The translations under genes and the position numbers were made by a program. 21,645 nucleotides of DNA, taken from IMG/VR virus record IMGVR_UViG_3300042691_032800, positions 1 to 21,645 of that record. One strand, written 5' to 3'. The DNA comes from a virus. The first letter of the stretch is position 1, and each line of letters starts with the position of its first letter. Below the pieces are notes generated by a model. The model was not told where the DNA came from. It worked only from the letters and a program-made list of their open reading frames with translations, and made no database searches. Positions 1 through 21,645 of the stretch are shown in pieces.

Positions 1-3000
1 CCGAGCAGGAAAAGGACACCGCGATTGACGAGGCGGTTTCCGAACTGATGGAGGCGGAAATCCTTCGGACCCGGAAGAACGGAAGGGCACCGGCTGGCGT
101 GATTTCAAAGAACCTCTCGGCGATGGCGAAGCTCGGGAACCCGAAGGCGGTGAAGAAGTTCAAGGCGTTCGTGGATGCGGTTCGCGACTTCTTCGGGCTT
201 GCGATGTCACGCGCCTACGCGATCAAGCAGGGAATCAGGGAGGGACGCATCAAGGAATCCGAATTGGATGATTTCACCGCAAAACTCTTCGGGCTCGAAA
301 CGCAGGACCAGCACGAGGCGGCGGTTGTCGAGGAGATCGCGGCGATTGTCGAGGAACCCGCGCCAGTTCAACAGGAGCCCGCGCAGAAGAAAGAAGCCAG
401 ACGCCGGAAGTTTACCACCACCCATTCGCGACACGCCGAGTTGTTCAGGGCAAATCCGTTTGTCGCTTCCGTTCTCGAGCAAGGCGGAATGATGTCTGCA
501 TCCCGCGCCCGCAAGGAGCGCGGTGAGGAGTGGTGGAAAGAAAACGGATCGCTGTATGATGACGCTCCAATCTTCAAAAACCCGACTTTCAACGCGATCT
601 ATTCCAAAGCCGGTCAACTGACACCCGACCAGATTGCCGATGGCATCGCCAGTGATGGACTCATGCCAGACGGTGACGTAAACCGCATGTGGAGAGAACT
701 CCGCAAAGCGGCGGAATCCACGACCAACCAAAACAGGCAGCTTGGCGCGGAGATGAAGAATCAGGCTGCTGCCGAACGGCTGGTAATCAAACAGGGCAAG
801 GAGTTCGAAAAGGCAAACCGCCCGAAGCGCAAGGGCGTCATGGAGTTTACCGCCGGGGACCATGAACCAGGATTTACCATTATCATTGGAGGCGAGCTTT
901 TCACCGTGATCAAAAACGACGGTGAGTTTGTCACGATCAAGGATGGCGACAAATTCGGGACTCAGACAATCCCAGCGGCCGAAGGGCTTTGGGTGGAAAT
1001 CGATAATTCCGAAATGTTTGACGCGGCGGAGATGGCCGAGATTGAAGAGGCGGCAAAGCGCAGGGTTGACGAAACCATGGCCAAGGGCTACCAGTCGGCC
1101 GATGAACTCGCCGAATCAGTCGATGTCGAAACGGAAAGCGGCAATGCGGGAGATGCTGATTCGGCAGGAAGCCCGCAAGGAGGAAATGAGGCGCAAGGCG
1201 ATGGAGGACAAGGCTCGGCAGGGGGCTTCTCGCTAGAGACTCAGACCGACGAGGACATTGACCGCGAGGAGGCCGCCGCCAAAACCAAGGCGGAAATCCA
1301 AAAGCGGCAGGATGCACGATTGACCGGATCGGCTGGCGATCTCTCCGCCGATATGTTCGGGGAGGGAGAAACCCCGCTGTTCAACGAACGGAGGGACACA
1401 CTAAGCGAAGGTGATCCGTTTTCCCTCGGACCGGCCAAGATGGCCGACGCCCTCATTGCCAACGCCCGCAAGCGGATGAAAAACCCTCGGGCGAAGATGA
1501 GGATTTTCGGCAACATCATCGACCGGCTTCACAAGCTCAACGCCCTGATCAACGCCACCGGCAACGCCTACAACTTCGACGCCTTCGGCAAGCCGTTCGA
1601 AGGGCGGTTCTCGGATGAGAAGAGCGGAATCCTCAATGCTCTGGCAATCCTCGATGCCGTTCTTGCCGCTGTCCCTCCCGACCTTCGGGGCCGGGTGGGC
1701 GGATACACCCAGCTTGCCAAGCTCGACACCGACGAGAAGCGGCTCGACTACCTCAAGCGCCGGATGAAGACCGTCGAGCGGGTAGTGAACGAATGGCTCG
1801 GCCGCGAGTTCACCAATGAACTCGAAAAGCTCCTTGAGCGGGCGAAACCGGCGAAGGATCAGGCTGGCAAGAAGAAGGTCGGCAAGGCCGGGGCCGATGT
1901 GCATTCGCTCTTCGACGTTCTGAGGCAGGCGAAGAACTGGGGACAGGCGGAAGTGGACAAGCACATTGCCGGACTGGAAGCCGGGATCTTGTCGGGAAAT
2001 CTCACCCCGGAGCAAGAAGCCCACGACACGCTCGAAATGAACCTTGTCGGCATGGTCGGCAACTGGCGCGAGGCCGACGTTTCCCGCAAGGCTGCCGCGC
2101 TGGAAAACGCGGCCAGCGTCTTTGAGGCGGGATACGCCAAGTTCAAGCTGGCGAAGCTGCTGGAAAAAGAGGATCGCGAGATTCGGCGGAAGAATCTCCG
2201 CGCCGACACCGGCAAGCAGGGCACCGCCGCGGAGCGGGACAAGCGCACCCTCGCCGACAACGGCCTGAAAGCTGGATGGCGCGATTCGTTCCTGTCGCTG
2301 ATTTCGTTCGAGCAGCTTTCCGAATACCTGTTCGGTCGCGGATCGAAAGAGGCGGTCCGGCTGGTGGACATGGAGCGCGAGGCATCGGCCGCCAAGGAGG
2401 ATGGCACACAGGCAAAGATGGATGCGCTTGAGGATCTTTTCACGAGACTCGGCAAGGGGTCGCAACTCGAAGGGGAGAAGATCCGTTTCAATCTTTCGCA
2501 GAAGACCTTGACCATTCAAGGCCGCACGCTTTCACCGCTCGAAGCGATCACCGCAACTCTGATGTGGAGGCAAGAGGATGGACGCCGCCACATGGAAGGC
2601 CACAAGGATGAGAACGGGCAGTTCACCGGACCTTGGCACTACGATCAGTCGTTCGTGGATGAGATCGAATCGAAGCTTTCCGACGAGGCCAAGGCGGTTC
2701 GCGATTTCCTCGCGCTGTCCTATGGCGAGGAATGGGCGGTCCTGAACCCGATCTACAAGGCCATCAACGGGATCAACCTCCCGCAGAACCAGAACTATTC
2801 GCCGCTTACGGTGAAGCCTCAGCAGGCATCGGCCGGCCAGATGGTTGACCCGGTTACTGGCAGCACGATGAGCGGAGCAAGCGCGACGCCTGGCAGCCTT
2901 CGGACCCGTGGAGCATCCATTGCTGAGCCGGACTTTCGCGACGCGCTGCAAACCTACATCGCGCACACGAAGCAGATTCAACACTGGATGGCCTACGCGC

Positions 3001-4199
3001 CATTTATGCAGGAAGCTGGCGCGATCCTCCGCAACCGGGAACTCGGCAACAGCATCGAGGAGAAGGGCGGCAAGGAGGCGCTTGGCGTTCTCCGGTCATG
3101 GCTGGATTTCTTTCAGATGGGCGGGACCCGCGACGCCGCCGCTCACCTGGCGATCAACCAGACCCTCAACCGGGTTTCCGGCCGGGTGGCGGCATCGATC
3201 CTGATCGGACGCATGGGCGTGCTGGCGATCCAGACGACGCAGCTTGCCGCGAGTCTCGCGGAGATGCCGGTGGGGGCGTTCGCCCTTCGATTCGGCAAAC
3301 TGCTGACGGGCCAACTCCAATGGGGCGCGGCGTTTCGCTCCGACTACATCCAGCGGCGACTCAAGCAAATGCCGGTTGTCGTTCAGCAGGCGATGGACGG
3401 ACTCAAGGCTAGCAAGCCCAACCGGCTGAAATACCACGTTCAACAACTCGGACGACTGATCGCGGGAACCGACGCGCTAATGACCGCCGGAACTTTCGCC
3501 ATCGTCCACGACTACCAGATAAAACAGGCGAAGGCGCTCGGGCTTTCCGGCGCCGACGCTGACGCCTACGCGATGCAGGCGGCGGAAAGGTCGGTTGATC
3601 GGATCGCGCAGCCGACGCGGGCCGGAACCCGGTCGCTCTATGAGAACGTCGAAACGCGCCCGGCTATGCGAGTGCTTTGGGCATTCGCCTCGGAAAGCCG
3701 CCAGAAAATCGCCCTTGGCTTGTGGCGGGTGACAGCGAAAGACCGGAGCCTTGGGGAAAAGGCAAGGGCGCTTGCCGTGACCTGGGTTGTCGGCGGCATG
3801 GTCGCGTCCATCATCCGGGCCGCGATGCGCGACGTTCGAAGCGACGATGACGACGAGGTTTTCGATGAACGGAATTGGAGTCCGAAGCGCCTGCTTCTCT
3901 CGTCTCTCACTGGACCCTTGCAGGGGATTCCGTTTTTGGGCGATGCACTCGAAGCCGGGGTTTACAGCGCGGCCGGTGAATACCAGCACGAAGGCAACCT
4001 GTTTTCCTCGCTGCCGAAGGCATTCAAGTCGGCGACCAGGGTTTCCGATTGGGGTGACAAAAAGCCGGATGAGATCATGAAGGACATCGAGACGATTCTT
4101 TCCGGCGCGGCGTTCTTCAACGATTCGCTTTCCGCCGCATCCTCACTCTCGCATCTCGCCCGCGACATTTTCGGAATCACCGACAACTTCACCGACTGA
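1..4199 (+). CDS. Giant phage virion polyprotein, C-terminal part (5' end outside window)
   Basis: The frame is open from the first bases of the window (codons from base 3), so the true start is probably upstream; the first in-window ATG is at 48. About 1,398 residues are visible. The order is a charged N-terminal part, a Gly/Asp/Glu-rich low-complexity linker (about residues 365-420 counted from ATG 48), a long helical Ala/Lys/Glu-rich region, then a C-terminal part with hydrophobic helices (around AVTWVVGGMVASIIRAAM) followed by an acidic DDDDE run. This architecture fits the large polyvalent or internal virion proteins of short-tailed phages, which enter the cell with the DNA or help DNA cross the envelope. 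It sits directly upstream of the tail-fibre genes, as expected for a virion module. I see no catalytic motif in the visible part. The family call is by architecture and context, not by a diagnostic motif. Confidence 0.75.
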   Translation, partial: EQEKDTAIDEAVSELMEAEILRTRKNGRAPAGVISKNLSAMAKLGNPKAVKKFKAFVDAVRDFFGLAMSRAYAIKQGIREGRIKESELDDFTAKLFGLETQDQHEAAVVEEIAAIVEEPAPVQQEPAQKKEARRRKFTTTHSRHAELFRANPFVASVLEQGGMMSASRARKERGEEWWKENGSLYDDAPIFKNPTFNAIYSKAGQLTPDQIADGIASDGLMPDGDVNRMWRELRKAAESTTNQNRQLGAEMKNQAAAERLVIKQGKEFEKANRPKRKGVMEFTAGDHEPGFTIIIGGELFTVIKNDGEFVTIKDGDKFGTQTIPAAEGLWVEIDNSEMFDAAEMAEIEEAAKRRVDETMAKGYQSADELAESVDVETESGNAGDADSAGSPQGGNEAQGDGGQGSAGGFSLETQTDEDIDREEAAAKTKAEIQKRQDARLTGSAGDLSADMFGEGETPLFNERRDTLSEGDPFSLGPAKMADALIANARKRMKNPRAKMRIFGNIIDRLHKLNALINATGNAYNFDAFGKPFEGRFSDEKSGILNALAILDAVLAAVPPDLRGRVGGYTQLAKLDTDEKRLDYLKRRMKTVERVVNEWLGREFTNELEKLLERAKPAKDQAGKKKVGKAGADVHSLFDVLRQAKNWGQAEVDKHIAGLEAGILSGNLTPEQEAHDTLEMNLVGMVGNWREADVSRKAAALENAASVFEAGYAKFKLAKLLEKEDREIRRKNLRADTGKQGTAAERDKRTLADNGLKAGWRDSFLSLISFEQLSEYLFGRGSKEAVRLVDMEREASAAKEDGTQAKMDALEDLFTRLGKGSQLEGEKIRFNLSQKTLTIQGRTLSPLEAITATLMWRQEDGRRHMEGHKDENGQFTGPWHYDQSFVDEIESKLSDEAKAVRDFLALSYGEEWAVLNPIYKAINGINLPQNQNYSPLTVKPQQASAGQMVDPVTGSTMSGASATPGSLRTRGASIAEPDFRDALQTYIAHTKQIQHWMAYAPFMQEAGAILRNRELGNSIEEKGGKEALGVLRSWLDFFQMGGTRDAAAHLAINQTLNRVSGRVAASILIGRMGVLAIQTTQLAASLAEMPVGAFALRFGKLLTGQLQWGAAFRSDYIQRRLKQMPVVVQQAMDGLKASKPNRLKYHVQQLGRLIAGTDALMTAGTFAIVHDYQIKQAKALGLSGADADAYAMQAAERSVDRIAQPTRAGTRSLYENVETRPAMRVLWAFASESRQKIALGLWRVTAKDRSLGEKARALAVTWVVGGMVASIIRAAMRDVRSDDDDEVFDERNWSPKRLLLSSLTGPLQGIPFLGDALEAGVYSAAGEYQHEGNLFSSLPKAFKSATRVSDWGDKKPDEIMKDIETILSGAAFFNDSLSAASSLSHLARDIFGITDNFTD

Positions 4200-4270
4200 A
4201 TCCGGGGCGCACGCCAAAACAATTCAACTCGTCAAATCATCCCGAAACCCGTAATAGAAACCCCGACGCC

Positions 4271-5413
4271 ATGGCCGTAACCTCCGAAACATCGTCTGTC
4301 AGCTACACCGGCAACAACTCGGCCGTGACCGCCTACACGGTGCCCTTCTTGTTCTACAAGAAGGAGCATCTTGAAGTGATCGTCACCGACGAGGACGGCG
4401 TGGAAACCGAGCGTGCCCTGACCACCGATTACACCGTGACCGGCGAGGGTGACGAGGACGGCGGAACGCTGACCACAGAAGAGGCATGGGACAACACTCA
4501 CACGGTGACGATCCGGCGTTCGGCTCTCGTGCTTCAGCCATTCGTTTTCGAGGAAGGCCAGCGCCTGCCGATGAAGACTCTGGAAAAGGCTCTCGACTGG
4601 ATCACGATGCACGTTCAGCGCGTGCTGAGAATCGCCACCAGCGCGGCTTCCGACCTGCTCGACCACATCGCCGACACGGACAATCCGCACGCGGTGACGA
4701 AGGCCCAGGTGGGACTCGGCAACTGCGACAACACCAGCGACGCGAACAAGCCGATCAGCACCGCGACACAGACGGCGCTCGATGGGAAATCGGATGTCGG
4801 TCACACCCACACCTTCGCGAGCCTGACCGACAAGCCGACGACTCTTGCGGGGTATGGCATCACCGATGGAGGCGAGCCGGTTATTCCCATCACCCGCACC
4901 GCCGCGGAGGGAGATCCGAACATCCCCGACACAATCACCGCCACCGGGTCAATGGTTGGCGCGTCTCTCGACCCGATACCGGTTCCAACGGTCCTGACTC
5001 GCGTTGCGGACGTGAATGACTTCCCCGCATGGGAAGGTGATAACTCAAGCACCTTGCAGAGAGTCGGGGGGGAATGGATTCTGGACATCGGAGGCGGCGA
5101 TTACCTGGCATCCAACGATTTGACCGAAGCCCTTCACCCCGGCGGGATGACCGGATGGACAATCGACACCGGTTCGGGACAGCCGACATTGACCCAATCG
5201 GCAGTAACAGCCACCCACCACGGCCAGAAGTGCGTCGTCGGAACAGTCAATCCCGTGGTCTATCAGGCTCTCAACTCCGAAGACCTCACCGAGTGGACGC
5301 TGGTCGGCCCCTACGGAGTGGTTTCCGACAATGAGAATCCCCTGCTCTACCGCCGCATCATCTTCGATGGCGGTGCCCTTTCCTCCCAAACCTACACCCC
5401 TGCCGACTCCTAA
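4271..5413 (+). CDS. Tail fibre / tail adaptor protein with T7 gp17-like N-terminus
   Basis: This 380-residue protein probably links a receptor-binding fibre to the tail. Residues 1-118 match the pattern of phage T7 tail-fibre N-terminal domains: a start like SYTGNNSAVTAYTVPFLFYK, a VTDEDG..T.L..DYTVTG core, then TVTIRRSALVLQP and a closing EKALDWITMHVQ helix. Residues 130-205 resemble the short repeats of phage tail collars and fibres (DNPHAVTKAQVGLGNCDNTSD, then HTHTFASLTDKPTTLAGYGITDGG). The C-terminal half is Asp/Gly/Thr-rich with no recognisable enzymatic site. The ATG at 4271 lacks a Shine-Dalgarno site; the leader is A/C-rich. The next gene starts two bases after the stop. The N-terminal domain is the main reason to call the phage short-tailed. 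Confidence 0.8.
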   Translation: MAVTSETSSVSYTGNNSAVTAYTVPFLFYKKEHLEVIVTDEDGVETERALTTDYTVTGEGDEDGGTLTTEEAWDNTHTVTIRRSALVLQPFVFEEGQRLPMKTLEKALDWITMHVQRVLRIATSAASDLLDHIADTDNPHAVTKAQVGLGNCDNTSDANKPISTATQTALDGKSDVGHTHTFASLTDKPTTLAGYGITDGGEPVIPITRTAAEGDPNIPDTITATGSMVGASLDPIPVPTVLTRVADVNDFPAWEGDNSSTLQRVGGEWILDIGGGDYLASNDLTEALHPGGMTGWTIDTGSGQPTLTQSAVTATHHGQKCVVGTVNPVVYQALNSEDLTEWTLVGPYGVVSDNENPLLYRRIIFDGGALSSQTYTPADS

Positions 5414-5414
5414 C

Positions 5415-6353
5415 ATGAAGCACATCATCGCCACGCTACTGATCGCCCTCGCCGTTTCGGTTTCCGCCCAAGAGCGGACATCGGCACTGAAAGACCTGTC
5501 GAACGTCGATCCCGCCACCGGGCGCACGGCGCTGGATGTTCCAAGCAATGCGGAAGCGGCTGCGCTCATTGATAACACCGCCGTCAACGCCGCCATTGCG
5601 GAAGACCCGGCGGCGAGTCGTGCTGCGCTAAATGTTGCCGAACAAGGCGGGGCGATGACAGCGGACACCATCACCGCCGATGCGTTCACGGTCAAAGGGT
5701 CTCCGGTTCCGTCCATCCTCTTGCAGAAAACATGGTATCCAGATTTCTCCAACTGGACGCTAAATACAGGCACCGTCGCCGCCACCAGCTATGCCGCGCA
5801 ACTGAAAATGCTTACCGCTGGCACAGCCTCCAGCACTGTAATTTGTCACACCGCTCCAAGCTCTGAGTGTTTCCCTATGCTGAGGTTCGGCAGCAGTTCC
5901 GCACGCGGCGACATAGATTTCACGGGCGAAGTGTGGATGTCATGGAGGTTCAACATTTTCACATCCAACGCAACCAGCGTATTGCGCGGATGGATTGGCC
6001 AATATACAGGCGCGACCACCGATCCCACCGCTGAAGGATTCGGTTTTGAAGTCACTAATACCGAACTCAAGATCCTAGCCTACAAAACCGGCACCGGAGT
6101 TACCAGATCGCCCTCCAGCATCGCAACGATCAATAACGATGACAACTACCGTCTCATCATGAGAAAGGAAGCTAATGGGACGATCTCCGCATGGCTGGAT
6201 GTCACCCCTGACCAGACTCCGACGGCGACACTTTCCACCGGCCCCACATCTTCATGCGCAAGCGGATCAATGGAGTTGATACTAACGAACGGCGCGACCG
6301 CATCGGCGGTTCGCGCCCATGCCGCCGTCCCATGTTTCCACATCGTCGATTAA
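5415..6353 (+). CDS. Putative tail or receptor-binding protein with an N-terminal signal peptide
   Basis: The frame extends upstream, but ATG 5415 is preferred because it follows the previous stop by one base and begins a textbook Sec signal peptide: Met-Lys-His, a hydrophobic core at residues 4-16, and a Val-Ser-Ala cleavage site before Gln19. Residues 20-90 are Ala/Asp-rich with repeated phrases (TGRTALDVPSNAEAA, then SRAALNVAEQGG), as in phage tail-associated spacers. Residues 110-312 look like a beta-rich carbohydrate-binding or lectin-like domain (WYPDFSNWTLNTGTV, WMSWRFNIF, YRLIMRKEANGTISAWLD). It also has several Cys residues. Export of a tail protein is unusual; a chance hydrophobic N-terminus or a surface role is possible. 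Base composition drops from about 5700 onward. The function is inferred from its position among tail genes. Confidence 0.6.
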   Translation: MKHIIATLLIALAVSVSAQERTSALKDLSNVDPATGRTALDVPSNAEAAALIDNTAVNAAIAEDPAASRAALNVAEQGGAMTADTITADAFTVKGSPVPSILLQKTWYPDFSNWTLNTGTVAATSYAAQLKMLTAGTASSTVICHTAPSSECFPMLRFGSSSARGDIDFTGEVWMSWRFNIFTSNATSVLRGWIGQYTGATTDPTAEGFGFEVTNTELKILAYKTGTGVTRSPSSIATINNDDNYRLIMRKEANGTISAWLDVTPDQTPTATLSTGPTSSCASGSMELILTNGATASAVRAHAAVPCFHIVD

Positions 6354-6354
6354 T

Positions 6355-7599
6355 ATGAGCCGCTACACACAGACATCATCATTTGATCTCGGATCAGGCG
6401 TGGACGGCACCAACCCAGCGACGGGAAACGCACTCCATGTTGAAGGGGACTGGATGTTCATTGGCGACCAAGAGGCACCAATTGCACGCGACGGCAGCGT
6501 TCATGTTTACAAGCGGATTGCCGGGGTTTGGACGTTCCACGAAACACTCTCAAAAGGAAACGGATTGGCGAACCCCGGTTGGTTTGGCTATGACCTCGAT
6601 CGCTCTGGTGATTGGTTGGCAGTTTCCACCACCCATCAAACGGGATGGGCATCTCCATCCGGAGCGGAGGGCGGCGTTGAGCTTTTCAAATACAACTCGG
6701 GGAACGACACATGGGAGCATCAGCAAAGCCTCATCGGCCACGATGCGGCATCGACATCGGAGTTTGGTTTGGCCGTTCGCATTTCTGGCAGCTACCTCGC
6801 GGTCGGATCACCATTCCACGACACGCCATCCGCCAACTGCGGGAAATTCTACATTTACAAACTGGTCAACGGAGTGTGGACCTTGGATTTTGAGTGGCAG
6901 GAGGCGTCTCCAACCGCTCAAAACACCCTTGGTCTGCAAGTCGAAATTGACGGCGACTATGCGTTCGCGTTTTCCGGATCGCCTGCCACCTATCGAGGCA
7001 CGCTTTATTGTTTCAAACTCACTGCCGGGACATGGGTGCTGCATCAAACCATCACATCTCCAAGTCCTCAGGACAATGAGGGATTCGGGCGCGGTGCATC
7101 CTGTGATGGAGAGTGGTTGGCGGTCGGAGGCAGCATGCGCGGAGCGAATTACGGCAGCACCAAGGGCTACATCCACATCTACAAACTCATCGGCACCACA
7201 TGGACGCATCAGGTTACCTACAACCCGCCAAATCTCCACAATCAAGCTTGGTTCCCGGCAAACGTCATGCTGTCTGGAAAATTCATCATCGCCGGATCTC
7301 TCTGGACCGACCGCAGCGAGTTTGATCCGCTCGTCGGAGACTCTAACGGCAATGGCAAGGGCCGCGTGATTGTCTTCGAGAGACTGCAAGATGACAAGTG
7401 GCGGCAATATCCGATGCCCGCAATGGACCTCAGATTCGGAGACTGGAACGGTGCTGGTGTTGCGGTCGAATCGGACGGGACCGCGTATTCGCTGGCATTC
7501 GGCACAGAAGCCGACCGCACTCAAATGCGCGTGAGAATGTTTGACCGCACGGCAGGAGCGTCTTACTCGTCACTATCATTATCATCAATCACCGCATGA
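6355..7599 (+). CDS. FG-GAP-like beta-propeller protein, probable receptor-binding tail protein
   Basis: The start at 6355 follows the previous stop by one base; an upstream in-frame ATG at 6319 lies inside the previous gene and is rejected. The 414 residues contain several repeats of about 50-60 residues with the pattern FG..V...G.WLAVG......G...IYK...GTW, for example near residues 15-60, 75-120, 135-185, 190-230, 235-290 and 295-350. This is the pattern of FG-GAP-type beta-propeller blades, common in surface and adhesion proteins. The gene is the last structural gene before the lysis cassette, where receptor-binding proteins often lie. It is richer in A/T than its neighbours: bases 6841-6900 hold 27 G/C of 60, against 43 of 60 at 2221-2280. 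This suggests exchange between phages. The blade fold is a confident reading; receptor binding is inferred. Confidence 0.65.
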   Translation: MSRYTQTSSFDLGSGVDGTNPATGNALHVEGDWMFIGDQEAPIARDGSVHVYKRIAGVWTFHETLSKGNGLANPGWFGYDLDRSGDWLAVSTTHQTGWASPSGAEGGVELFKYNSGNDTWEHQQSLIGHDAASTSEFGLAVRISGSYLAVGSPFHDTPSANCGKFYIYKLVNGVWTLDFEWQEASPTAQNTLGLQVEIDGDYAFAFSGSPATYRGTLYCFKLTAGTWVLHQTITSPSPQDNEGFGRGASCDGEWLAVGGSMRGANYGSTKGYIHIYKLIGTTWTHQVTYNPPNLHNQAWFPANVMLSGKFIIAGSLWTDRSEFDPLVGDSNGNGKGRVIVFERLQDDKWRQYPMPAMDLRFGDWNGAGVAVESDGTAYSLAFGTEADRTQMRVRMFDRTAGASYSSLSLSSITA

Positions 7600-14623: not shown

Positions 14624-14772
14624 ACCCGGCGCAAGGACTCAACCAATACCGCCTCGACACGCTGGAAGAGATGCTGGCGAGTTACGAGAAGATCAAAAAG
14701 CCGTCCCCATGGGACATTTCACGCCGCGAGGCGATCAGGGCGGAAATCCGTAGGAGAAAGGAAAAAGCATGA
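14620..14772 (+). CDS. Small basic helical protein (50 aa)
   Basis: ATGA overlaps at both ends and a GGAGG site before the start support a real coupled gene. The sequence is a helix-rich short protein (YRLDTLEEMLASYEKIKK, then SRREAIRAEIRRRKEKA). No function is assignable. Confidence 0.6.
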   Translation: MNPAQGLNQYRLDTLEEMLASYEKIKKPSPWDISRREAIRAEIRRRKEKA

Positions 14773-15488
14773 AGATCCACACAATGCCGCAACGCTCGGA
14801 AGAGTGGTTTGCCATCCGCAAGAGCGTGCTGATCACCGCTTCCGAAATGGGGGTGTTCCTCACGAAGAACGATGCCACCAGCGCGAAGGCCCGGCTGAAC
14901 CTCATCACCAAGAAGCTGGCCGAGCCGATCTATTCCGACGAATCCCTGTCAGGCTTTGAATTCCTGATGGAGCTTCGGGCGAAGGAAGAGAAGGCGTTTG
15001 AATACAACATCCCGGTGAAGCGCGGCAACGCTCTGGAACCGGAGGCGCGGGCGATGTATGAGGAGCGCACCGGTCATCACGTTTCCGAAGTCGGCTTCAT
15101 CACCGATGACAAAGAACGATTCGGATGCTCGCCGGATGGGTTGATTTCACTCGATTCAATTGGCCCGGAGTTCACGGATGCCATTCATCACGGCGTCGAA
15201 ATTAAATGCCCGATCCCGGAGACCCACATGAAATGGCTTCTCGCCGGTGGACTCCCGGAGGAGCACAAGTGCCAGGTTCACGGCTCCATGGCCGTGACCG
15301 GCCTGTCACGCTGGGATTTCGTGAGCTACTGCCCCGGCCTTCCTCCGCTGATCGTCAGGGTTGAGCGGGACGAATTCACCGACTCGATCAGCGCGGGTCT
15401 GATTACGCTCCATGCCGAATACCAACGCCACGGCGCGAAGCTCAAGGCGCTGTTCCGGGAAGCTTTTGAGAAAGGAGAGGCGGCATGA
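14769..15488 (+). CDS. YqaJ-family phage recombination exonuclease
   Basis: This 239-residue nuclease belongs to the PD-(D/E)xK superfamily that includes lambda Red-alpha. It probably digests one strand of double-stranded DNA to give substrate for an annealing protein. Visible motifs are QRSEEWFAIR (8-17), the acidic residue in LEPEAR (89-94), the metal-binding SPDG (121-124, Asp123), the E-x-K core in GVEIKCP (Glu144, Lys146) and a conserved Gln in HKCQVHG (about 169). The length suits the family. It is ATGA-coupled on both sides in the recombination operon, preceded by AGGAG. Confidence 0.9.
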   Translation: MKIHTMPQRSEEWFAIRKSVLITASEMGVFLTKNDATSAKARLNLITKKLAEPIYSDESLSGFEFLMELRAKEEKAFEYNIPVKRGNALEPEARAMYEERTGHHVSEVGFITDDKERFGCSPDGLISLDSIGPEFTDAIHHGVEIKCPIPETHMKWLLAGGLPEEHKCQVHGSMAVTGLSRWDFVSYCPGLPPLIVRVERDEFTDSISAGLITLHAEYQRHGAKLKALFREAFEKGEAA

Positions 15489-15754
15489 GCTTCGAAGATC
15501 CGATGCAAGTCCGCTTTGAAACCGGCGTCATGCACGTTGACGGGCGCAACCCGGAAACAGGGGAACGGTTTTCCAAAACCGAACCGACATACCGAATCGA
15601 GATCGGCTTCCCGCAGATTGGAACCATCGGCGTTCTTGCATCAAACACCGACAAGCAAGCCGTCTTCGACCGCGCGATCTCCCGCGCGGAAACCATGCTC
15701 GCGAACCTGAGAGTCATGAAACAAGCCAATCTCTCCACCACCACCAACCTATGA
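15485..15754 (+). CDS. Hypothetical protein of the recombination operon (89 aa)
   Basis: This gene overlaps the exonuclease by ATGA with an AGGAG site. The sequence mixes strands and helices (VRFETGVMHVDGRNPETGER, then YRIEIGFPQIGTIGVLASN and AISRAETMLANLRVM). No family is recognised. The next gene overlaps its stop by ATGA. Confidence 0.65.
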   Translation: MSFEDPMQVRFETGVMHVDGRNPETGERFSKTEPTYRIEIGFPQIGTIGVLASNTDKQAVFDRAISRAETMLANLRVMKQANLSTTTNL

Positions 15755-15933
15755 AAAACACCGACACAAGCCAACTGCCCTCATCCATCGAAACGCAGCT
15801 TTCCGAACTCGAAGCCCGTCACAAGGCCCATCAGGCGAAGATGGAGGAACAACGCCGACGCAAGATCACCCGACGCGAAGCCCATTACGCCCGACGCTTC
15901 ATCAACTCCACCCCGCCGATCGTTCTCGTTTGA
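15751..15933 (+). CDS. Small coiled-coil protein (60 aa)
   Basis: The start overlaps the previous stop by ATGA. Residues 8-40 form a charged helix (IETQLSELEARHKAHQAKME, then RRRKITRREAHYARR). The stop TGA is embedded in the leader motif that precedes the next gene. Function is unknown. Confidence 0.55.
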   Translation: MKNTDTSQLPSSIETQLSELEARHKAHQAKMEEQRRRKITRREAHYARRFINSTPPIVLV

Positions 15934-15949
15934 TAGAGACACAAACCAA
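15932..15949 (+). promoter_or_regulatory. Leader motif copy (GATAGAGACACAAACCAA)
   Basis: This is a variant copy of the recurring leader, with two extra bases. It begins within the stop of the preceding gene and is followed by an A/C-rich stretch to ATG 15972. Confidence 0.4.
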
Positions 15950-15971
15950 ACCACAGAAAGAAACCAACATC

Positions 15972-16502
15972 ATGCCCGTGCTCAACAGCATCGCCATCAC
16001 TCCGAAAGCCATCATCCTTTCGGTTGTTGAAAACTCTGGCAGCGATTCCGCTGACCTCATTGAATCCACTATCACCGCCCATGAAGAACCGCTGGCGTCG
16101 TTCACCAAGGCATTTGCCGCGCTCCCGGCCGTCTTCTGCGAAATCATGGAGATCGGCCCCGATTGGACCACCGGCCTTTCAGTCCGCAAGCTCGCGATCA
16201 AACGGACGAAAGCCGGAACCCGGTCGGTGATCATCGGTTGTACCAAGCAACTCGACGTTCGTCAGGACTTTCTTCACTCGGTTTCCACTCCCGTGGTTCA
16301 AATCGAGAAGTCATCCGAAGGCGAAAGCGGAGCCGTGGAAATCGAGGGCAAGCTTTGCAAGGCTATCCTCAAAGCAATCCACGAGGCTGAAAAATACATG
16401 GCCGGAGAACGGTCCCAACAGCTTCTGAACTTTGACCAGGCGAAGGCCGCTTTGCAGGCAACCGCCGATCAGGGCAAGGATCTATTCGCTGCCGAAGGTT
16501 AA
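15972..16502 (+). CDS. Conserved phage protein of unknown function (176 aa)
   Basis: ATG 15972 is chosen over an in-frame start at 15930, which lies in the leader. The protein has an N-terminal strand-rich part (VLNSIAITPKAIILSVVE), a middle with WTTGLSVRKLAIKRTKAG, RSVIIGCTKQLDVRQDF, and a helical C-terminus (AVEIEGKLCKAILKAIHEAE). The strand-then-helix layout could bind nucleic acid or a partner, but no motif proves this. It follows the exonuclease group and shares its orientation. Confidence 0.65.
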   Translation: MPVLNSIAITPKAIILSVVENSGSDSADLIESTITAHEEPLASFTKAFAALPAVFCEIMEIGPDWTTGLSVRKLAIKRTKAGTRSVIIGCTKQLDVRQDFLHSVSTPVVQIEKSSEGESGAVEIEGKLCKAILKAIHEAEKYMAGERSQQLLNFDQAKAALQATADQGKDLFAAEG

Positions 16503-16515
16503 ACCATCCAACGCA

Positions 16516-16881
16516 ATGCCCAAGATCCTAAACATCGGTGTGGCGAGGCTGTTCAACCTTGACCGCTACGAACACACCAAGATTTCCGTGAACGTGGAAC
16601 CCGGTGAAAATCCGGGAACGATGCTCCGGGAGATTCAATCGCTGATCGAGGACTTGAATCCGGCCTGCCCGGTCGAGGACTATCAGATTCGCGATGCTCG
16701 CGCCATCCTCGCCAAGCCGGAGAACAAAGAAGATCCATTCGGCTACTCCCACGAGGACGCTCAAAAGGTTCTCGATCAATACGAGGCGTGGCAGGCCAAG
16801 CGGAATGCCGCCTATGCTCGCCTCGATGAGATGGGGGCCGCGCCAACGGTTGAGGACATCGACAACACCCCGGTCAGTTGA
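16516..16881 (+). CDS. Conserved phage protein of unknown function (121 aa)
   Basis: The start at 16516 lies 13 bases after the previous stop. The N-terminus VARLFNLDRYEHTKISVNVE resembles phage recombination-region proteins with a NLGNYE..KIEV opening that I recall without an assigned function. A helix with TMLREIQSLIEDLNP and a C-terminal helix (YSHEDAQKVLDQYEAWQAKR) follow. There is no catalytic motif. Confidence 0.65.
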   Translation: MPKILNIGVARLFNLDRYEHTKISVNVEPGENPGTMLREIQSLIEDLNPACPVEDYQIRDARAILAKPENKEDPFGYSHEDAQKVLDQYEAWQAKRNAAYARLDEMGAAPTVEDIDNTPVS

Positions 16882-16885
16882 ACCC

Positions 16886-17110
16886 ATGGTCTCGAACTCA
16901 CCAGAACCGGCGAGAGACGATCCGAAGCCGCTCAAGGGCGTCGGCATCATCATCGCCGAACAACAGGCCGATGGATCGCATCAGACCCTTGGTGTCATCT
17001 TCTCCCCCAACCGCGAGAAGCTGCAACTGCTGATCCGATCCATCCACGGCCAGAAAATCACCGTGAACCTTGCCGACATCAAAGGCGGGTCGATCACGCT
17101 CGAACGATAG
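16886..17110 (+). CDS. Small hypothetical protein (74 aa)
   Basis: The frame starts four bases after the previous stop. It encodes a strand-rich small protein (GVGIIIAEQQADGSHQTLGV, then LQLLIRSIHGQKITVNLADI). Its stop lies within the leader motif that precedes the RecU-like gene. No family is recognised. Confidence 0.55.
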   Translation: MVSNSPEPARDDPKPLKGVGIIIAEQQADGSHQTLGVIFSPNREKLQLLIRSIHGQKITVNLADIKGGSITLER

Positions 17111-17122
17111 ACACGAACCAAC
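17106..17122 (+). promoter_or_regulatory. Leader motif copy (GATAGACACGAACCAAC)
   Basis: This copy of the recurring leader contains the stop of the preceding gene and lies 14 bases before ATG 17137, which has no Shine-Dalgarno site. Confidence 0.4.
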
Positions 17123-17136
17123 TTTTGCCGCCCGCC

Positions 17137-17715
17137 ATGGTTCCACCATCACTCAAAGGAAAGGAGTTCGAAACGCTGATTCTCGAAGCCGCAAGGCGCG
17201 AGGAAGCCAGCGGAGGGCTGACCCTCTCACGCTACGGCGTGCAGGGTGTCACCTTCGGGGATAAGACCATTCTCGTTCCCTCGCTCCCGGACTTTGAGGG
17301 GGTGCTGGCAGGCGGGCGGCAAATCATCATCGAGGCCAAGGCGTGTAAAACCCCCGGCCTTGAACTGAGGGACAAGAATTTCAAAGACCGCCAGTATTCG
17401 CACATGGCGAAGCGGGCGGAATTCGGTTCTCTGTGCTTCCTGCTGATCCACTTTGCCGAGCGCCAGCTTGTGACCAAGCGAGACCCAGGCATGACCGTGG
17501 CCGTCCCGGTCAACGCGCGGCATCCGTTCTGGATGCTCTACGAGACCGGCGAGCGCCGAACCCTCTCGCGCGAGGAGGCGCTGACCATCGGCCAAGCGGT
17601 CCCGTGGATCGTGCCGAAGGGCTGCCGGAAGCCTCTTCCTGACCTCCTTTCCTTCCTCTGGCCAGAAGCCCGGAAGATCCAGCTTTCAACCGCACAACCG
17701 ACACTTTTTCCATGA
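17137..17715 (+). CDS. RecU-like Holliday-junction resolvase / PD-(D/E)xK nuclease
   Basis: The 192-residue protein carries a PD-(D/E)xK nuclease core like the RecU family: GKEFE (8-12, Glu10), PDFEG (51-55, Asp52), the E-A-K triad in IIEAKA (64-69, Glu66, Lys68) and a conserved Gln in KDRQYSHM (about 86). The following strand, LCFLLIHF, fits the family. Such enzymes resolve branched recombination intermediates. It follows the annealing-protein and exonuclease genes and comes just before the replication module. TTG 17125 is an alternative start. It ends with an ATGA overlap. Confidence 0.75.
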   Translation: MVPPSLKGKEFETLILEAARREEASGGLTLSRYGVQGVTFGDKTILVPSLPDFEGVLAGGRQIIIEAKACKTPGLELRDKNFKDRQYSHMAKRAEFGSLCFLLIHFAERQLVTKRDPGMTVAVPVNARHPFWMLYETGERRTLSREEALTIGQAVPWIVPKGCRKPLPDLLSFLWPEARKIQLSTAQPTLFP

Positions 17716-17870
17716 CCAATCTCGAAAAACTCCAGCAGGAAAACGCCGATCTCCGGCGTATGAATCAACGATTGAAAGAGCAACTTGCGAAGGCGCTTGA
17801 GGCGGTGGCGGAAAACCACAACAGGGATTTGACGTGCGCCCCGGAAATGGATAGAACCGCCGCCGTCTGA
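17712..17870 (+). CDS. Small coiled-coil protein (52 aa)
   Basis: The gene overlaps the nuclease by ATGA. Residues 2-38 form a heptad-like helix (LEKLQQENADLRRMNQRLKE, then LAKALEAVAENH). It ends in TCAPEMDRTAAV. It may be an adaptor for a recombination or replication protein; function is unknown. Confidence 0.55.
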   Translation: MTNLEKLQQENADLRRMNQRLKEQLAKALEAVAENHNRDLTCAPEMDRTAAV

Positions 17871-17901
17871 GCAACGGTTTGGAACCCGCAGACACCACGA
17901 C

Positions 17902-18015
17902 ATGCACGACGATCAAACATCCTTCGACTCTCTTCATCCGCCCGCTGATCGTGCCGGGGTTCCAACGGGTGGAGAGAGTCGGGGGATTTTTGTTGCTTCA
18001 GAAAACCCCGGATGA
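17902..18015 (+). CDS. Possible small gene or leader peptide (37 aa)
   Basis: A frame starting at 17902 ends with an ATGA overlap on the initiator gene at 18012. It encodes MHDDQTSFDSLHPPADRAGV, continuing to EGRGIFVASENPG-like residues (actual end: SRGIFVASENPG). The DNA also forms a large hairpin. If translated, ribosomes would open that hairpin and couple expression to the initiator. Real protein function is unproven. Confidence 0.35.
   Translation: MHDDQTSFDSLHPPADRAGVPTGGESRGIFVASENPG
17925..18011 (+). promoter_or_regulatory. Large hairpin with possible pseudoknot over the initiator start site
   Basis: CGACTCTCTTCATCCG (17925-17940) pairs with CGGGTGGAGAGAGTCG (17966-17981) over 16 base pairs including two G-U pairs. 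A loop segment CCGGGGTT (17954-17961) is exactly complementary to AACCCCGG (18004-18011), the eight bases just before ATG 18012. Pairing there would occlude the initiator start. The T-run at 17987-17991 begins five bases after the stem, so partial terminator activity is also possible. Confidence 0.5.
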
Positions 18016-18716
18016 CCAACGGACACTTCAAGCTTCAGCGCCGCTTCTTCGACCACTGGTTATGGTCGGAAAGGCGTTCGTTCTCCAAAGCCGAGGCATG
18101 GCTCGACCTCTTGCAGATTGCGGCATTCAAGCCCACAAAGAGGATCGTTCGAGACAAGCTCTTGCCGATTGAGGAGGGCGAAATCATCGCTTCGTTGCGA
18201 TACCTGGCTGAACGCTGGATGTGGAACAAGGACAAGGTGGGGCAGTTCCTCGCCTTGTTGGAGTCTGACCGCATGATAAGACGTAGTTCCAGACAGGGGG
18301 AAAGCGTCATTTCCCTTACTCGTTACAAGGATTACGCGAGGTCACTAGACGCAGGTCCAGACACCGAAACAGACAGAGGCCAGACAGAGGCCAGACAGAG
18401 GCCAGACAAAGAAGAAGAAGGAAAAGAAGGTAAACCATATGAGAGAGAGAAAGGCGCATGGGGAAGAGTTGGGAGACCAACCCTTTCCCAAGCAAGATCA
18501 GCCGCTCAGAATCTCGGAATCACTCAGCAGAAAGCCGATGAATGGTGGAACTGCCGAGAGGCTTCCGAATGGATGAAGGGAATGGCTGGCGGCGGAATTG
18601 CCCCCGTAGGAACAAACTGGCAAGCCGACCTGAAGACCTACGCGGCAAGAGGCCACAACGGGAACGCTCCCAATCCCAAGAAGACCGCCCTTCGGGGAGC
18701 GGATATTGAACTTTGA
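18012..18716 (+). CDS. Replication initiator / replisome organiser protein
   Basis: The 234-residue protein has an N-terminal winged-helix pattern common in phage replication initiators: HFKLQRRFFDHWLWSERRSF, SKAEAWLDLLQIAAFK and IASLRYLAERWMWNKDKVGQ, then FLALLESDRMI (residues 5-90). A charged linker (about 110-155) is encoded by 11-bp tandem repeats. The C-terminal part (150-234) is basic and helical, possibly for helicase contact. The next gene, starting after three bases, is a DnaB-type helicase, which supports an initiator role like lambda O. It lacks a Shine-Dalgarno site and its start may be regulated by the upstream hairpin. Confidence 0.75.
   Translation: MTNGHFKLQRRFFDHWLWSERRSFSKAEAWLDLLQIAAFKPTKRIVRDKLLPIEEGEIIASLRYLAERWMWNKDKVGQFLALLESDRMIRRSSRQGESVISLTRYKDYARSLDAGPDTETDRGQTEARQRPDKEEEGKEGKPYEREKGAWGRVGRPTLSQARSAAQNLGITQQKADEWWNCREASEWMKGMAGGGIAPVGTNWQADLKTYAARGHNGNAPNPKKTALRGADIEL
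18370..18408 (+). repeat. 11-bp tandem repeats inside the initiator gene (iteron candidates)
   Basis: CAGACAGAGGC occurs three times head to tail at 18370-18380, 18381-18391 and 18392-18402, with a partial unit at 18403-18408. A related CCAGACA lies at 18357-18363. The unit equals about one helical turn and is not a multiple of three, so selection on protein repeats is unlikely. A purine-rich, A-rich tract follows (18408-18455). The arrangement resembles the lambda origin inside gene O. Confidence 0.5.
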
Positions 18717-18719
18717 CCC

Positions 18720-19988
18720 ATGAACGAAGCACAACCGTTTCCAAGCGCCATCCTCGCGGAGAAATCCGTGGTCTCCTGCTGCCTCCAAGACGAACGGCTT
18801 TACCGCCAAGCCAAGGCCGAAGGGATCGACTTGGACGCATTCCACTACCCGCAAACCCGGATCGTGTTCGAGGAAATCGGGCAAATGAAGCGCGACGAAA
18901 ACGGCCAGATTGATCTCGTCACGATCGTTCAACGGCTCAACGAAAAGGACATCCTCCAGCGGGCCGGAGGACCATCGGAGGTTTATTCGATTTTCGGATT
19001 CGCCCCGACCGCAGCCGGGTGGACGCAATGGGTCCAGACCTTGCGAGAGATGAAGGCCAGGCGTCTTGCCCTACGGTCGGCACAAAGGCTCTCGGAGACG
19101 AACGACAGTGAGGAGGCCATCACCGAAGCCGAAGCCACGCTGAAAGCGCTCAGGGCCGCCGTGAGAGGCCCGAAGCGGGCAGTCGAGGCCAAGGAATCAA
19201 CCCGCGAGTTTGTCGAACGACTGACGGCCGCCAACGCAGCCGGCGAAATCCCCGGACGCTCGACCGGACTGCTGGCGATTGACGCGGTTTCCGGAGGCAT
19301 GAAGCCGGGAGAGTTTTGGGTGATCGGCGGCAAGCCATCGCGCGGCAAGTCGGTGCTGATGATTCAACTCGCGTGTGAGTTCATCACCCGCGGCGAGCCG
19401 GTCGCGATCTTCTCGCTTGAGATGATGCGGCACGAAATCATCGGCCGCATGGTGTCCACTCTCGGACGGGTCAATTACGGCACGATCACGCAGCCGAAGA
19501 AGGCTACGAAGGGCGATCTGGTCGGCATTCAGCGATCCGTTGCCGAACTGGCCGAAGCGCCTTTCTGGATCGACGACACGGCCAACCAAAACACCGACAC
19601 GATCCTTTCCGAAGCGATCCGGCTCAGGGACGCGAACGGAAGCCTTGCCCTTGTCGTGGTCGATTACCTGCAACTCGTCAGGGGAAACCGCCAGCGCGGA
19701 GAGTCACGCGAAGAGGAGGTTGCCAGGGTGTCGGGCAGCCTCAAGCAACTGGCGAAGGAACTGAATTGCCCGGTCATTTCCGCGACTCAGTTGAACGAGA
19801 ACGGCCAGTCGAGGGAGTCGCGGGCCATCGAACAGGATGCCGACAACCTCCTTTACATCGTCGAGGATGGAATCAAGGTGGTGAAGCTCCGGAATGGCAG
19901 AAGGAACGACCTGCTGCCGCTGTTCCTCAATGGCGATTTCCAGCGATTCCAAGAGGGCAAACCCGTTACGACCGAGGACAACGAATGA
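18720..19988 (+). CDS. DnaB-type replicative helicase
   Basis: This 422-residue ring helicase would unwind DNA at the phage origin. The N-terminal domain (residues 5-100) matches the DnaB primase-interaction domain (EKSVVSCCLQDERLY, then DLVTIVQRLNEKDIL). The C-terminal RecA-like domain has Walker A GGKPSRGKS (203-211), the H1a glutamate in FSLEM (231-235), Walker B LVVVDYLQL (311-319, Asp315) and the ATQLN motif (355-359). The length is slightly shorter than cellular DnaB, as in many phages. It starts three bases after the initiator stop and overlaps the next gene by ATGA. No primase or polymerase lies in the window, so host enzymes are probably used. Confidence 0.93.
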   Translation: MNEAQPFPSAILAEKSVVSCCLQDERLYRQAKAEGIDLDAFHYPQTRIVFEEIGQMKRDENGQIDLVTIVQRLNEKDILQRAGGPSEVYSIFGFAPTAAGWTQWVQTLREMKARRLALRSAQRLSETNDSEEAITEAEATLKALRAAVRGPKRAVEAKESTREFVERLTAANAAGEIPGRSTGLLAIDAVSGGMKPGEFWVIGGKPSRGKSVLMIQLACEFITRGEPVAIFSLEMMRHEIIGRMVSTLGRVNYGTITQPKKATKGDLVGIQRSVAELAEAPFWIDDTANQNTDTILSEAIRLRDANGSLALVVVDYLQLVRGNRQRGESREEEVARVSGSLKQLAKELNCPVISATQLNENGQSRESRAIEQDADNLLYIVEDGIKVVKLRNGRRNDLLPLFLNGDFQRFQEGKPVTTEDNE

Positions 19989-20467: not shown

Positions 20468-20728
20468 ATGCCTGAAAATGCACAACAAACGAGAGACCTG
20501 GCCGGGTCGCCTATGCTGCCAGGTTCTCGGCCTTCGCTGACTCGGTGCGATGGGTGCCAGAATCGGCGTCCGTGTGTCACCATGGAATCAGGAATCATCT
20601 ACGAAGGAAAGGACTGTCACATTCACCTTTGCCGGTGGTGCCGTGGCCACCTATCACGCCGAATCAATGCAGCGAACGATCAAGGTGATGGACGGCGCGA
20701 TGGATGCCCAAACTCGCCACCGAGCTGA
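20468..20728 (+). CDS. Small Cys-rich, probably zinc-binding protein (86 aa)
   Basis: The protein contains CDGCQNRRPCV, then after about 12 residues CHIHLCRWCRGHL, a pattern of paired cysteines that suits a zinc ribbon. This argues for this frame over the overlapping frame at 20550-20789. The N-terminus (residues 1-25) is polar and the C-terminus basic and disordered. The start has a leader-like motif immediately upstream. Zinc ribbons in small phage proteins often bind nucleic acids or other proteins. No family is assigned. Confidence 0.5.
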   Translation: MPENAQQTRDLAGSPMLPGSRPSLTRCDGCQNRRPCVTMESGIIYEGKDCHIHLCRWCRGHLSRRINAANDQGDGRRDGCPNSPPS

Positions 20729-20772: not shown

Positions 20773-21645
20773 ATGAACTACTACAATGAACACGATCCCA
20801 AAGCCGCTGACTGGCTCCGCGAACTCATCGCCGGAGGACATATCCCCGATGGAATCGTGGACGAAAGATCAATCACCGATGTCTCACCCGATGAACTATC
20901 AGAATACACCCAATGCCACTTCTTCGCCGGAATCGGCGGATGGTCACTCGCACTTGAACTCGCCGGATGGCCAGCATCTCGACCTGTTTGGACAGGTTCT
21001 TGCCCCTGCCAACCTTTCAGTGTCGCAGGCCAAGGAAAAGGCGGCGGCGATGATCGCCACCTCTGGCCAGTCCTTCGTCGGCTTATCGCCTTCCAGCGTC
21101 CTGAGCGAGTATTTGGGGAGCAGGTTGCGCAGGCAATTGGATTCGATTGGCTCGATGGAGTATCAGCAGACTTGGAAGAGGAAGGTTACGCGGTCGGGGC
21201 GGCTGTATTGGGCGCACACAGCGTCGGCGCACCGCACATCCGACAACGCCTCTTCTGGGTGGCCGACTCCAACAGTGGACGATGCGAACAACGTGACCCG
21301 CGCCAGCGGGCAATTCCAATCTCTGCCACGAACGGCGCAACTGGCGGGATGGCATACGCCAGTGGTAAGGGATCATCGGAACTCTCACGGGGACGGAAGC
21401 AACCCAAGGGATCTGCCAAGGCAGGCGTTCTTGTGCGGATGGGGAACGCCAACGGTTCAGGACTCCAGACATGCGACAGTATCGCCAGCGGAGGAAAACA
21501 GGGATCAGCGGAACCTCAGAATTCAAGCGCATGGAGTGATTACGAAATCGCCCATTGCCGAGACGGAAAAGCCAGGCGCTTTGAACCCGGAGCATTCCCG
21601 CTGGCTTATGGGATTCCCGGCCGCGTGGGGCTCCTGCGGGGCTAC
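20773..21645 (+). CDS. C5-cytosine DNA methyltransferase (3' end outside window)
   Basis: The frame is open from ATG 20773 to the window end, 291 residues. It methylates cytosine at C5 in a target sequence, probably to protect phage DNA from restriction. Visible motifs are FAGIGG (51-56, S-adenosylmethionine binding), PCQPFS (78-83, catalytic Cys79), GEQV (115-118, replacing the common ENV) and APHIRQRLFWVA (153-164). The C-terminal RRFEPGAFPLAYGIPGRVG and LLRGY match the end of this family. GTG 20767 and ATG 20704 are alternative starts, but MNYYNEHDP matches the usual family opening. No restriction gene is visible. A second long frame lies within it from 20891. Confidence 0.92.
   Translation, partial: MNYYNEHDPKAADWLRELIAGGHIPDGIVDERSITDVSPDELSEYTQCHFFAGIGGWSLALELAGWPASRPVWTGSCPCQPFSVAGQGKGGGDDRHLWPVLRRLIAFQRPERVFGEQVAQAIGFDWLDGVSADLEEEGYAVGAAVLGAHSVGAPHIRQRLFWVADSNSGRCEQRDPRQRAIPISATNGATGGMAYASGKGSSELSRGRKQPKGSAKAGVLVRMGNANGSGLQTCDSIASGGKQGSAEPQNSSAWSDYEIAHCRDGKARRFEPGAFPLAYGIPGRVGLLRGY
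20891..21645 (+). CDS. Overlapping +1-frame ORF with conserved phage-family motifs (3' end outside window)
   Basis: In the frame one base ahead of the methyltransferase, an ATG at 20891 (alternatives at 20849 and 20786) opens a frame to the window end. It encodes a plausible second protein: DGQHLDLFGQVLAPANLSVS, GSMEYQQTWKRKVTRSGRLY, three W-x-T-P repeats (GWPTPTVDD, GWHTPVVRD, GWGTPTVQD) and ALNPEHSRWLMGFPAAW near the end. I recall a widespread phage protein family with these same features, sometimes labelled as methyltransferase-related. In several sampled stretches its third codon positions are at least as G/C-rich as those of the methyltransferase frame (21001-21060: 16 of 20 against 11 of 20; 21541-21600: 14 against 11; 21301-21360: 11 against 13). 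It may be a true overprinted gene or a conserved shadow. Confidence 0.45.
   Translation, partial: MNYQNTPNATSSPESADGHSHLNSPDGQHLDLFGQVLAPANLSVSQAKEKAAAMIATSGQSFVGLSPSSVLSEYLGSRLRRQLDSIGSMEYQQTWKRKVTRSGRLYWAHTASAHRTSDNASSGWPTPTVDDANNVTRASGQFQSLPRTAQLAGWHTPVVRDHRNSHGDGSNPRDLPRQAFLCGWGTPTVQDSRHATVSPAEENRDQRNLRIQAHGVITKSPIAETEKPGALNPEHSRWLMGFPAAWGSCGA

Follow-up and report, generated by a model that had tools for sequence, protein, structure and literature searches.

Two overlapping frames at the end of a phage contig

The window analysed here is a stretch of 21,645 nucleotides (an IMG/VR viral record, IMGVR_UViG_3300042691_032800, of 21.6 kb), and its final 870 bases hold a methyltransferase (MT) frame, which we call alpha, and an overlapping +1 frame, which we call beta. 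The remainder of the window includes a tailed-phage replication region at 14769-19988, with a YqaJ-like recombinase, a RecU-like nuclease and a DnaB-like helicase, and open reading frames for tail or structural proteins lie at 3-7599. The two frames are as follows:

20773..21645, + strand: alpha, C5-cytosine methyltransferase frame (PF00145, phrog_363); open also from an ATG at 20704; truncated by the window end
20849..21643, + strand: beta, +1-frame protein; likely start ATG 20849 (alternatives 20786, 20879, 20891); truncated by the window end

Homologues of alpha begin at M/AYYNE, which corresponds to window position 20773. An initial annotation had read this main frame as a C5-cytosine methyltransferase with the catalytic motif PCQPFS, and the matches to PF00145 (E 2.7e-16) and phrog_363 (E 2.4e-72) and the alignment to the M.HhaI catalytic core (E 6.9e-18) all agree with that reading. 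In addition, the top structural matches of an AF2 model of alpha are C5-MTs. The following motifs could be placed:

20776..20886, + strand: displaced motif II/III, YYNE.D..AA.WLREL...VDERSI.DV, ahead of motif I (from hhalign and AF2 strand order)
20920..20940, + strand: motif I, FFAGIGG, AdoMet binding (aligned to M.HhaI FAGLGG)
21004..21021, + strand: motif IV, PCQPFS, catalytic Cys (aligned to M.HhaI PCQAFS)
21115..21126, + strand: motif VI, GEQV (aligned to the motif VI region of M.HhaI)
21236..21265, + strand: motif VIII, HIRQRLFWVA, the final canonical motif matched within the window

Alpha of the window type appears to be locally rearranged, with motif II/III preceding motif I; hhalign of the displaced unit to the canonical motif II position gave P 0.0044. 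A gap of ~36 columns lies where the motif II/III unit would normally sit (20776-20940 and homologues), and distant beta-bearing relatives retain the canonical motif order. Both the Pfam and the M.HhaI matches stop at motif VIII, past which the alpha frame is weakly constrained. Motif X (GNAIVPQ) is conserved at the alpha end in relatives and would lie beyond the window in this copy, and an in-frame motif IX is absent from alpha in every overlapping member of the family.

The initial annotation had also reported a +1 frame open for more than 750 bases, and this frame does run open from 20786 to 21643. Its translation matches phrog_1008 (E 1.3e-27), a family labelled 'DNA methyltransferase', while sequence searches of Pfam, NCBIfam and PDB with beta returned nothing at a meaningful threshold. 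The described superposition of motifs is base-exact: WPTPT (21260-21274) lies over WVADSN (21257-21274) of alpha, and RWLMGFP (21599-21619) over PLAYGIP (21598-21618). As for the beta motifs that had been singled out, TWK..(T)PSGR, GWPTPT and LNPxHSRWLMGxPxxW are indeed the best conserved in the family; DLFGQ is not among them. Beta can be divided into three parts:

21089..21229, + strand: folded core, helix plus beta-hairpin (SVLSEYLGSRLRRQL...TWKRKVTRSGR), over alpha motifs VI to VIII; family-conserved (AF2)
21253..21550, + strand: beta-constrained region with GWPTPT-type repeats, presumed to serve DNA recognition (from codon-position divergence)
21584..21628, + strand: NPEHSRWLMGFPAAW, motif-IX-like (cf. 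Dcm RRLTPRECARLMGF), over alpha PLAYGIP

The AF2 model of isolated beta is for the most part of low confidence (pLDDT 60), with confident stretches only at the helix/beta-hairpin (pLDDT 83-92) and at the terminal motif, which fits a chain that would fold on its partner. A Foldseek search with this model found no fold match (best E 0.25); we disregarded cyanase-like matches, which at E 0.25 or weaker are meaningless at such model confidence.

The C-terminus of the beta family, LNPxHSRWLMGxPxxW, resembles motif IX. When beta was compared with canonical C-termini by hhalign, the best alignment fell exactly at motif IX, with a P of 0.21 that is not significant alone. A stronger argument than this profile alignment is that an in-frame motif IX and beta are mutually exclusive. 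The count covered MT genes that are complete and distinct. In each of the 52 single-chain MTs whose motif IX is in frame, the +1 frame contains three or more stops and lacks the beta motif, whereas in 273 of the 278 MTs with the motif in +1 that frame is free of stops up to the motif. Another 67 MT genes do not strictly follow either pattern, though +1 is open in 56 of them.

Conservation of and selection on the +1 frame

Homologues were collected by an alpha-similarity search of public viral contigs, genomes and phage records, giving 256 partly redundant sequences including the window. In all 256 of these MT-similar sequences (window counted) the +1 frame carries a homologue of beta, and in 255 alpha and beta share 600 bp or more. 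One stop interrupts beta in two sequences in which alpha is intact (L042, L172), possibly reflecting either loss of beta or re-initiation, and alpha is split in one (L028). Among members examined down to ~25% identity, no intact beta was found without an overlapping MT, so that a search for stand-alone members of the +1 family led back to an MT for each intact copy. A weak beta-like fragment (E 1.4e-4) is present without an MT in L316 and may be a chance match. Stand-alone beta had been considered for Mycobacterium phage Ochi17 (gp73/74) and Pseudomonas phage LPPA33; in both, beta was found over the MT frame. The Ochi17 MT (L290, 2531-3290) is annotated as the consecutive genes gp73 and gp74, the latter of which is overlain by the beta frame. 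The best phage match of the window alpha, at 54% identity, is in Cylindrospermopsis phage Cr-LKS3 (L298, 3113-3850).

An open +1 frame in the window by itself is only mildly surprising, since 5 of 300 synonymous-codon shuffles of its alpha also keep +1 open. Across 214 distinct genes the picture is different: no +1 stops per gene were seen where synonymous shuffling predicts 3.9, in a region that had been picked as the open one, and the +2 frame of the same genes has 14.7 stops against 13.0 expected. The shuffle retains codon usage already shaped by beta and is therefore a conservative test. In relatives, +1 stops are common only over the first ~100-110 nt and near the end.

Selection was assessed in 57 close pairs at 1-25% nucleotide divergence; the pairs were disjoint, so that shared ancestry was counted once. 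Upstream of the overlap, divergence at codon positions 1/2/3 is 3.6/3.1/28.0%; within the overlap it is 12.8/5.6/12.6%; and past the overlap it is 9.6/9.3/27.6%. Given that alpha position 3 is beta position 2 and that alpha position 1 is beta position 3, the position-wise divergence of the overlap matches the prediction for two coding frames. OLGenie-type statistics, counted with our own version of the method, gave a beta dNN/dNS of 0.10 (0.095; 0.084-0.122 over 15 bootstraps), with dSN/dSS at 0.43 and dNS/dSS at 0.41. Furthermore, MT-synonymous changes that would introduce a stop into beta account for 1 difference in 3464 site-changes, compared with 1825 in 57116 for other MT-synonymous, beta-altering changes.

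The balance between the frames shifts along the gene. Constraint is dominated by alpha up to ~codon 80 and acts on both frames up to ~codon 160; beta dominates over ~codons 160-260 (nt 21253-21550), where codon positions 1/2/3 diverge by ~0.25/0.11/0.11 in relatives. Both frames are tightly constrained in the shared PLAYGIP / RWLMGFP segment. For replication, we made two scans for distant MTs of canonical motif order and a control scan for single-chain Streptococcus-type MTs. Past motif VIII the ratio of position 1 to position 3 divergence is 1.71 in the window type and 1.50 and 1.51 in the two distant types, against 0.55 in the 52 single-chain control MTs. The dual-frame pattern is thus a property of the overlapping family and not of C5-MTs generally. 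The nearest relative of the window in our data is at ~57% identity, and the selection regime of the window itself is inferred from the family.

The substitution pattern shows that purifying selection acts on both frames over the shared DNA, as expected of an overprinted, same-strand +1 gene pair. The initial annotation had left a choice between such a pair and a conserved shadow of the MT; the former holds, with beta constrained beyond the demands of the MT and +1 stops rare in homologues whose MT is intact.

Initiation of the inner gene and unusual family members

Start signals were counted in 134 representatives at <85% identity, with expectations drawn 300 times from each gene's own codon usage. 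A +1 ATG is present at the equivalent of codons 25-41 in 125 of the 134, where 97 were expected (maximum 116 in 300 draws). A Shine-Dalgarno-like 4-mer precedes the +1 ATG in 88 of them (33.5 +/- 4.9 expected, maximum 49) and a strong Shine-Dalgarno 4-mer in 46 (8.9 expected, maximum 17). One conserved Arg codon is AGG in 40/134, as opposed to 8.8% elsewhere. In the window a comparable signal can be read from the sequence:

20833..20838, + strand: GGAGGA, Shine-Dalgarno-like, 10 nt 5' of the beta ATG at 20849

ATG 20786 is probably not the beta start, because the +1 frame of relatives is often stopped over the first ~100 nt; the likely candidates in the window are ATG 20849 and ATG 20879. On these computational signals, the inner gene is predicted to initiate independently.

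Several members depart from the usual arrangement. In L317 (111-2138; also L319 and L320) an intein with Hint and LAGLIDADG domains is inserted at the alpha catalytic Cys (SCP/CFPEG...HN/CQPFS, with slashes at the junctions). We had considered that the L317 insertion might be an intron, and rejected this as it has no Rfam match and the Hint and LAGLIDADG domains were found. The intein interrupts the N-terminal part of beta, and the downstream conserved beta core is open for 196 codons; this hints that beta can do without its first ~50 residues. In L265 (2370-3499) and L266 (600-1729) there is a frame swap near codon 210, such that the beta N-terminus is in frame with the alpha C-terminus and the beta C-terminus is in the third frame; this could be a frameshifted allele or an assembly error. 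Both frames are in pieces in L295 (3865-4972), and L296 and L297 are partial matches; all three are remnants of plasmids or prophages, carried by enterobacterial and Brucellaceae plasmids.

A probable two-polypeptide methyltransferase and its alternatives

Motif IX is missing from the MT frame and a segment resembling it is found in +1, which makes it probable that the two products are halves of one enzyme. We consider it very probable, from sequence evidence, that the nested, overprinted gene pair encodes a single two-polypeptide C5-cytosine methyltransferase; that the two chains assemble and that beta performs recognition are the inferred elements. In this working model one mRNA would yield alpha and, from its own internal +1 start, beta. 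Alpha would be the catalytic domain (motifs I, IV, VI, VIII and X) that binds AdoMet and flips and methylates the cytosine. Beta would combine a short folded part and a variable region of repeats with the motif-IX-like NPxxxRWLMGFPxxW; on assembly with alpha into one enzyme it would supply target recognition, together with motif IX, by which the recognition domain is ordered. That target recognition resides in beta is suggested by the region past motif VIII being constrained mainly in the beta frame. Judging by the phage context, the enzyme may allow the phage to modify its own DNA against host restriction.

There is precedent for such an arrangement. In M.EcoHK31I, the gene for the small chain is nested in the gene for the large chain, in another frame. 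This C5-MT, which recognizes YGGCCR, is made up of a larger polypeptide that carries motifs I-VIII and X and a smaller one that carries IX (PMC3404938), and it has been employed as a 'naturally split methyltransferase' (PMC3439449). By published motif layout, its split resembles the one proposed for alpha and beta. There are also differences: M.EcoHK31I is known from one restriction-modification system whereas the phage pair is widespread, and its target domain is predicted in the large chain whereas selection past motif VIII in the phage pair favours the beta frame. M.AquI (CYCGRG) is likewise a C5-MT of two chains, split near the variable region. However, its small chain has motifs IX and X while the phage pair keeps X in alpha, and the phage genes, unlike those of M.AquI, overlap in different frames over most of their length. 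Single-chain C5-MTs (M.HhaI, Dcm and the Streptococcus phage MTs) are the more distant comparison; alpha and M.HhaI have a catalytic core in common, but the single-chain enzymes have an in-frame motif IX, RRLTPRECxRLQGFPD, and a stop-ridden +1 frame, whereas alpha is without an in-frame IX.

It is also conceivable that the overprinted gene is real and that beta serves a separate function, for example in anti-restriction, regulation or DNA binding, without being an MT subunit. Viral overprinted proteins are often accessory, and beta has no significant structural or profile match to an MT domain. We nevertheless regard this as unlikely for the following reasons: (i) intact beta is never found without alpha; (ii) alpha has no motif IX and shows little constraint past motif VIII; (iii) beta and an in-frame motif IX exclude each other and (iv) M.EcoHK31I provides a precedent for the split.

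A different mechanism would be a +1 ribosomal shift from alpha, producing a hybrid chain (alpha N-terminus plus beta C-terminus) as the active enzyme. The change of the more strongly selected frame from MT to +1 along the gene would be in keeping with this, as would the confinement of +1 stops to the first ~110 nt and the vicinity of the end. Yet alpha stays open downstream with a conserved motif X, which requires reading without a shift, there are more internal ATGs with Shine-Dalgarno sequences than expected, and the beta segment over motifs VI-VIII is already under +1 selection; we therefore hold a shift to be very improbable. Least credible of all, to the point of being negligible, is that the MT protein and its codon usage alone force an open +1 frame and that beta entries are artefacts: GC-rich DNA does make open frames common and a few shuffles of the window sequence also keep +1 open, but the lowering of third-position and raising of first-position change inside the overlap only, the low dNN/dNS, the absence of the pattern from single-chain MTs, the avoidance of silent MT changes that create a beta stop and the initiation signals before the +1 ATG all speak against it.

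The two-polypeptide model bears on how the family has been annotated. In phage K1G the pair is ORF31 and ORF30, the latter, a 'Mte8-like protein', being the beta frame; in Paenibacillus phage Shelly it is gp55 and gp56, with gp56, the 'g55 internal gene', as beta; and in PhiXhv-28 both members are annotated as 'DNA methyltransferases'. The family phrog_1008 is the beta frame annotated over an MT gene. Only the beta frame is annotated in Cr-LKS3 (g58, a 'methyltransferase', with alpha unannotated), W5_chr3 and LPPA33, and only alpha in epsilon15 and N15. The 'Mte8-like', 'g55 internal gene' and phrog_1008 entries have been called DNA methyltransferase or left unexplained. Beta database entries thus represent real proteins, which are most likely subunits rather than independent methyltransferases. 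We searched the literature and found neither a description of the pair as halves of one two-frame enzyme nor a dual-frame selection test, although this is weak evidence of absence, as the search reached only a minority of subscription journals.

More broadly, the family may represent a phage-wide C5-methyltransferase lineage that encodes the DNA-recognition half of the enzyme in +1 within the catalytic gene itself, with specificity shifting by gain or loss of GWPTPT modules in beta and the catalytic frame serving there as an almost free linker; we regard this wider proposal as about as likely as not. Hundreds of phage and prophage records annotate only one protein of the pair, and either frame is often named 'methyltransferase'. 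If the two-part enzyme model is correct, such entries each show half an enzyme, and alpha cloned or modelled alone would yield an enzyme that is inactive or has the wrong specificity. The family spans phages of Gram-negative, Gram-positive and cyanobacterial hosts and is one of the larger natural data sets on prokaryotic dual-frame evolution.
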